Shown piece after piece: positions 6,276 to 6,351 of a DNA stretch of 53,477 nt. Location: assembly GCA_018303685.1 (NCBI GenBank), contig JAGVXS010000063.1:1-53477 (forward strand), in the 5' to 3' direction. The DNA comes from Candidatus Woesearchaeota archaeon (lineage in GTDB: Archaea > Nanobdellota > Nanobdellia > Woesearchaeales > GW2011-AR4). The notes beneath the pieces are model-generated. The model saw nothing but the letters and a program-made list of their open reading frames with translations, was not told the origin of the DNA and did no database searches. The number at the start of each line of letters is the position of its first letter. The stretch's first letter is position 1. Made by a program: the position numbers and the translations under genes.

Positions 6276-6351
6276 AAAAGTGAATAATAATTGTAAAAAA
6301 GTGAATAAAAAGCATTTATAAATGTTTCTGTTTTTAAGGATTTTATTCACT
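6276..6351. promoter_or_regulatory. Promoter and putative operator of the wHTH-PK gene
   Basis: AAAAGTGAATAA at 6276-6287 and 6297-6308 (21-nt period); AGTGAATAAAA 6300-6310 inverted as TTTTATTCACT 6341-6351; TATA-containing palindrome CATTTATAAATG 6313-6324 between the inverted arms. Confidence 0.7.

Follow-up and report, generated by a model that had tools for sequence, protein, structure and literature searches.

The window analysed here, 53,477 nucleotides in length, is contig 11 of a Woesearchaeota metagenome-assembled genome (MAG; 1.13 Mb, 92% complete). A gene for a winged helix-turn-helix (wHTH) protein with a pyruvate kinase (PK)-like part lies near one end, preceded by its promoter and three repeats. 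The features of this locus are as follows.

119..1495, minus strand: sulfatase-family gene
1535..2390, minus strand: PHP-domain gene, frameshifted in the assembly
2410..3789, minus strand (the same as wHTH-PK): prolyl-tRNA synthetase-like gene
3799..4872, minus strand: next gene of the putative operon, with a 4-bp overlap; 357 aa, no Pfam name, polymerase-beta-type nucleotidyltransferase signature GTYTYGRSDID
4869..6272, minus strand: wHTH-pyruvate-kinase-like regulator (wHTH-PK), 467 aa
4908..6023, minus strand: PK barrel that lacks the B domain, and PK_C (aa 84-455); the catalytic residues have been lost
6078..6272, minus strand: winged helix-turn-helix domain (aa 1-65), HTH_11 match, recognition helix within ISVGSAFKVLK (aa 30-40)
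6276..6287, minus strand: proximal operator site 2, TTATTCACTTTT, +37 from the TATA start
6297..6308, minus strand: proximal operator site 1, TTATTCACTTTT, +16 from the TATA start
6315..6333, minus strand: promoter core, BRE-like ACAGAAACA and TATA box TTTATA(AA), with TTTATA at 6317-6322
6340..6351, minus strand: distal inverted half-site, minus-strand AGTGAATAAAA, its TGAATRA core 27 nt before the TATA start

The 12-bp direct repeat and its inverted copy, which the original prediction had described, were confirmed. On the plus strand AAAAGTGAATAA was read at 6276-6287 and 6297-6308 (start-to-start 21 nt, so that site 2 is exactly 21 bp from site 1), and the repeat could be extended to 15 nt at 93%. 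The inverted copy, TTTTATTCACT, lies at 6341-6351 and with its flank forms a 16-nt inverted pair with 6295-6310 that is 94% complementary. A TATA-holding palindrome had also been placed between the inverted arms; CATTTATAAATG is present at 6313-6324 with the TATA box inside it, but it does not sit midway between the arms (6318.5 vs about 6325.5), nor is it conserved. It was rejected as a functional palindrome, being confined to the window promoter and already different in G010, with only its TATA box conserved. From the conserved promoter and the N-termini of orthologues, the start of the wHTH-PK gene was set at ATG 6272 and not at GTG 6350 of the mechanically called ORF. Transcription is predicted to start between or around operator sites 1 and 2, at roughly 6285-6300 on the minus strand.

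Counting of the motif showed that the exact 11-mer AAAGTGAATAA has three copies in the 1.13-Mb genome, two of them at this promoter and the third in coding sequence, within a Cbf5/TruB-like ORF. At two mismatches there was no excess (32 matches seen, 38.7 expected in shuffled sequence). As loose matches did not rise above the level of shuffled DNA, the signal resides in the exact, spaced copies, and it is conservation, not frequency alone, that decides whether the repeats form an operator. The genome-wide scan by which a regulon was to be defined gave no support for one: exact, 1-2 mismatch and TATA-plus-half-site searches of the window genome and seven relatives returned extra sites at chance level only.

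HTH-PK fusions were collected by a search over 149 related genomes, with L117 and L122 coming from a further scan of named genomes; the genomes compared are MAGs or drafts. Conservation upstream of orthologues, one of the checks proposed with the original prediction, held throughout, with some version of the operator at every HTH-PK gene found in Woesearchaeota and related MAGs (9/9). Six of these promoters (G000, G010, G009, G002, G016 and G026) carry the exact tandem ATTCACTTT-N12-ATTCACTTT. When the six were aligned on the TATA box (TTTATA = 0), ATTCACTTT always fell at +16 and +37, and all had an inverted TGAATRA copy at -27/-28 from the TATA start. Invariant columns were compared in six diverged promoters (G000, G009, G002, G016, G026 and L117), giving 12/12 for site 1, 10/11 for site 2, 13/20 for the core promoter and 0/45 far upstream. 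The flanks of the operator in the same six promoters are unconserved (pairwise identity 0.28). The position of the ATG varies from +50 to +65, whereas the distance from TATA to operator is fixed, which argues for a promoter DNA element.

At L117 inserted DNA parts the operator from the gene, moving the ATG more than 100 nt further off and leaving more than 100 nt between site 2 and the ATG, with the operator-to-TATA offset unchanged. A reading of L117 as operator-less was discarded when sequence further upstream showed the operator displaced by this inverted-repeat-bounded insertion. The insertion itself (about 3865-3980, with inverted repeats CAAAAAACACC ... GGTGTTTTTTTG), between the operator and the HTH-PK start codon, is possibly MITE-like. 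The divergent HTH-PK members (G074, G096 and L122) have weaker variants, either ATTCATTT repeated at 20-bp spacing or an inverted TGAAT-N4-(A/T)TTCA. In G074 ATTCATTT is found at +14 and +34, with TGAATAA at -31; the G096 variant is TGAATGATCATTCA and that of L122 is TGAATAACCTTTCAC. The TGAATRA core lies at -30/-31 in G074/G096.

A count over 362 genomes of the order gave ten exact tandems and no instance of the reversed control. Six of the ten are the HTH-PK promoters and four (L109-L112) are HTH-MNT/HEPN toxin-antitoxin promoters. Together with the three exact genomic copies, these counts speak against a motif that is equally common away from promoters. Judged by comparison of sequences, the GTGAATAA boxes are a real, evolutionarily conserved operator and not a chance repeat.

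The tandems of L109-L112 directly precede HTH genes that are followed by a HEPN-like gene (Pfam domain check for L112). A protein-only search with the HTH alignment, blind to the DNA motif, yielded 44 loci. Within 120 nt upstream of the MNT-type short genes the 21-bp repeat was present in 32/33, as a ladder of ATTCA / TGAA / ATTCA, against 8/320 other upstream regions in the same loci; on inspection all eight control matches appear to be the same operators seen through alternative starts or on the opposite strand. Representative MNT proteins matched nucleotidyltransferase models, with HEPN-domain genes after them. An MNT domain with an adjacent HEPN gene was found at L127 and L140, the HEPN match at L112 lay just below the cut-off, and the window protein and its neighbours have no such pair. 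The operators of HTH-MNT genes hold extra inverted half-sites that are absent from those of HTH-PK genes.

Occurrence with both HTH-PK and HTH-MNT genes indicates that the operator travels with the winged-helix family. Two relatives (L155 and L156) with the recognition helix ISVSWCHETLK have ATTCG/CGAAT upstream in place of ATTCA...TGAAT, which fits a recognition code and is a possible natural specificity switch. However, a different HTH class (GIGYRPAYNHI) has a nearly identical motif, so the link between recognition helix and motif is not one-to-one. An HTH paralogue in the same genome (C26), 31% identical and with another helix, has no motif at its own promoter. The wHTH-MNT/HEPN family is broad, with loci L109-L112 and L118-L154 in Woese-, Pace- and Nanoarchaeota and a very regular half-site ladder after TATA; such ladders would back an operator model at the level of the family. 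At L104, L105 and L108 additional HTH genes have GTGAAT/ATTCA operators that do not belong to the exact-tandem class; the one at L104 is palindromic (GTGAATAATTATTCAT).

In the AlphaFold model (nine family members, mean pLDDT 83) the wHTH of the window protein consists of helices at 3-13, 21-28 and 32-44 and wing strands at 48-53 and 56-61, followed by the barrel and C domain. The best Foldseek matches were pyruvate kinases, and a human liver PK engineered to lack the B domain (7qdn) was among them. Short HTH-PK orthologues were found in G010 (87%), G009 (64%) and G002 (55%), and longer forms in G016, G026, G074 and G096. The B domain, which is the active-site lid, is gone in G000, G010, G009 and G002 and kept in the four longer forms.

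The long forms retain RINxSH (or RINGSH), KIET, RGDL, ATxxLDSM-like and SAET motifs, whereas in the short forms RGD has become RSR, RSS, RSK or RDS, AT has become AG or SG, and the E of KIE is lost; K270 is additionally lost in G009 and G002. At the places of E272, D296 and T328 of rabbit M1 (metal ligands or catalytic positions) the window protein has D202, R225 and G256, and the long orthologues keep KIET, RGDL and AT. Its score of 205.2 bits is under the cut-off of the NCBIfam equivalog TIGR01064 (306.4). From these substitutions it is very unlikely that the four short forms are working kinases; the long orthologues look like active pyruvate kinases. No other pyruvate kinase was detected in the draft genomes of the window, G010 or G009, and G002 and G096 encode another one. 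In the aligned HTH-PK proteins the PK_C loop TSGGY(S/T)AR is kept, while the short forms have lost the catalytic site, a weak hint that the sensor may be the effector pocket and not the active site.

The 357-aa neighbour gave a model with a mean pLDDT of 72, a best Foldseek match to the poly(A) polymerase Pla1 (E 0.095, not significant) and weaker matches to CCA-adding enzyme and ANT(2'')-Ia, which is only suggestive of a nucleotidyltransferase. Its family of 356-362 aa proteins (window 3799-4872; L114 5369-7526; L115 5415-7572) has the signature STLLGxYxxGxSDIDI (polymerase-beta nucleotidyltransferase), forms a tandem pair in G009 and G002, and stands in for ATP sulfurylase in operons whose HTH-PK is dead. 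A PHP gene is near HTH-PK in most of the orthologous loci read. The window PHP gene (1535-2390) and a 691-aa membrane-protein-like gene (10129-12066) are each split between frames and are intact in G010; the splits are frameshifts or assembly errors.

The long-form operons run from HTH-PK through ATP sulfurylase to APS kinase, after which come PHP genes, CDP-alcohol phosphotransferase genes or both, these last in an order that differs between operons. In G009 and G002 the APS kinase and PHP genes are kept and two 356-362 aa proteins plus a 210-aa protein replace ATP sulfurylase; in the window and G010 there is a single 357-aa relative, followed by the prolyl-tRNA synthetase-like, PHP and sulfatase-family genes. 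The 210-aa protein (L094 5265-5897; L095 8965-9594), in a sulfate-activation-like operon, has a CNLC motif and a GWFATLSP segment and is HIT-like by eye; the L094 copy had no Pfam match. ATP sulfurylase was detected in 4/4 long-form genomes and 0/4 short-form (dead) genomes, a small and phylogenetically linked sample, and no recognisable APS kinase was found in the draft window genome; as the genomes are drafts, such absences are provisional. This pattern of gene presence suggests that kinase activity is kept only while ATP sulfurylase-based sulfate activation is kept.

The operator travels with the wHTH family, and binding of the protein to its own promoter is the best explanation of the repeats. 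The exact copies in the genome, the tandems set against the empty control and the operator at all HTH-PK genes make autoregulation, as originally proposed, well supported for a comparative case. Our reading, held with considerable confidence, is that these repeats serve as the operator of the wHTH-PK gene next to them, which represses itself; we infer binding, repression, oligomer and ligand. The wHTH-PK protein, which would probably be dimeric or a PK-like dimer of dimers, would bind the two direct ATTCACTTT sites and additionally the inverted TGAATRA copy just before BRE/TATA; a spacing of two helical turns puts the two direct sites on the same face of the DNA. Once bound, it would block TBP/TFB/RNA polymerase and repress its own operon. 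The conserved sites overlap a region that runs from immediately downstream of TATA to beyond the expected transcription start, with the third copy just before the BRE, and autorepression by occlusion is the simplest reading of this layout. Most characterised archaeal regulators are repressors that act by promoter occlusion (PMC5569661), and in Shewanella an MNT antitoxin both binds its own promoter and represses it (PMC4621449). The original prediction had also allowed for control of the divergent CDP-alcohol phosphatidyltransferase gene. This was not supported, as the distal copy is conserved where there is no divergent gene, and the phosphatidyltransferase gene has a TATA-like box of its own ~70 bp away.

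Repeats may arise by chance in AT-rich intergenic DNA, and loose matches are indeed as common as in shuffled sequence, but for an exact, spaced repeat that is both conserved and rare genome-wide we regard the probability of this as negligible. A signal in the RNA of the 5' leader, for ribosome binding or attenuation, might be suspected from the position of site 2, which in most members precedes the ATG by 10-30 nt. It is very improbable, since the distance to the ATG is variable and that to TATA constant, site 2 and ATG are separated at L117, and one conserved copy lies upstream in untranscribed DNA.

The position of the sites also bears on the sign of regulation. Archaeal activators often bind just upstream of BRE/TATA, where the distal copy lies, and the repeat might thus be an activator site or an element of promoter strength; we think this rather unlikely, as the two best-conserved copies are downstream of TATA over the predicted start region, which is typical of occlusion, and the motif is not general to promoters. 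The identity of the bound protein is a separate matter, for the same repeat at HTH-MNT/HEPN promoters could mean that another regulator of this HTH type, such as an HTH-MNT antitoxin, occupies the sites and that cross-regulation takes place in place of autoregulation. We give this a low probability: the only other match to the HTH in the window genome is the 31% identical paralogue with its different helix and motif-less promoter, and of the family genomes searched, the six with HTH-PK are the only ones to have the exact tandem.

Under autorepression by wHTH-PK, the PK-derived part would be a sensor that alters DNA binding. In relatives this part looks active and PAPS-making enzymes (ATP sulfurylase and APS kinase) are encoded in the operon, and in the window lineage catalysis would have been lost with only the regulatory role left. 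As a tentative scheme, to which we give somewhat less than even weight, a PK joined to a toxin-antitoxin-type wHTH may have become a metabolite-sensing transcription factor, at first an active kinase regulating a PAPS operon and then, in lineages without ATP sulfurylase after its loss, a pseudokinase with only sensing and DNA binding left, its ligand being a phosphorylated metabolite in the old PK active or effector site.

Like wHTH-PK, trigger enzymes (PutA, BirA, NadR and archaeal RbkR, an HTH with riboflavin kinase) join a DNA-binding domain to a metabolic enzyme, and the best cases regulate the operon of their own pathway. BirA and NadR are bifunctional enzyme-regulators. PutA is a proline dehydrogenase and put repressor (PMC6978683), and rbkR is listed as a bifunctional gene regulator and enzyme, a relative without the N-terminal HTH being enzyme only (PMC8305020). 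Here, in contrast, the enzyme is pyruvate kinase and is dead in the window lineage, which points to a former trigger enzyme turned pure regulator; as the window protein lacks the catalytic features, judged by residues only, we class it neither as an enzyme nor as a trigger enzyme. From pyruvate kinase (Pfam PK + PK_C), with which it has the barrel and C-terminal domain in common by sequence and fold, wHTH-PK differs in its N-terminal wHTH and in the natural loss of the B domain and catalytic residues. With HTH-MNT antitoxins it shares the wHTH (up to about 55% identical) and the 21-bp-spaced ATTCA repeat after TATA, but it has no MNT domain and no HEPN neighbour in the window. Shewanella SO_3165 autorepresses without a recognisable DNA-binding domain (PMC4621449).

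Neither an HTH-pyruvate kinase fusion or regulator nor an HTH-linked PAPS operon in DPANN was found in the openly licensed literature. To our knowledge, almost nothing is known of transcription factors in uncultured DPANN archaea, and comparative genomics here defines a regulator, its operator and a likely target operon together. One operator is found in two protein contexts, the PK fusion and the HEPN/MNT antitoxin. From its sequence record, a glycolytic enzyme seems to have become the switch of its own operon in Woesearchaeota archaea, and the passage from active-looking enzyme to dead regulator, tracking the absence of ATP sulfurylase, offers a clean natural series for the transition from enzyme to transcription factor.
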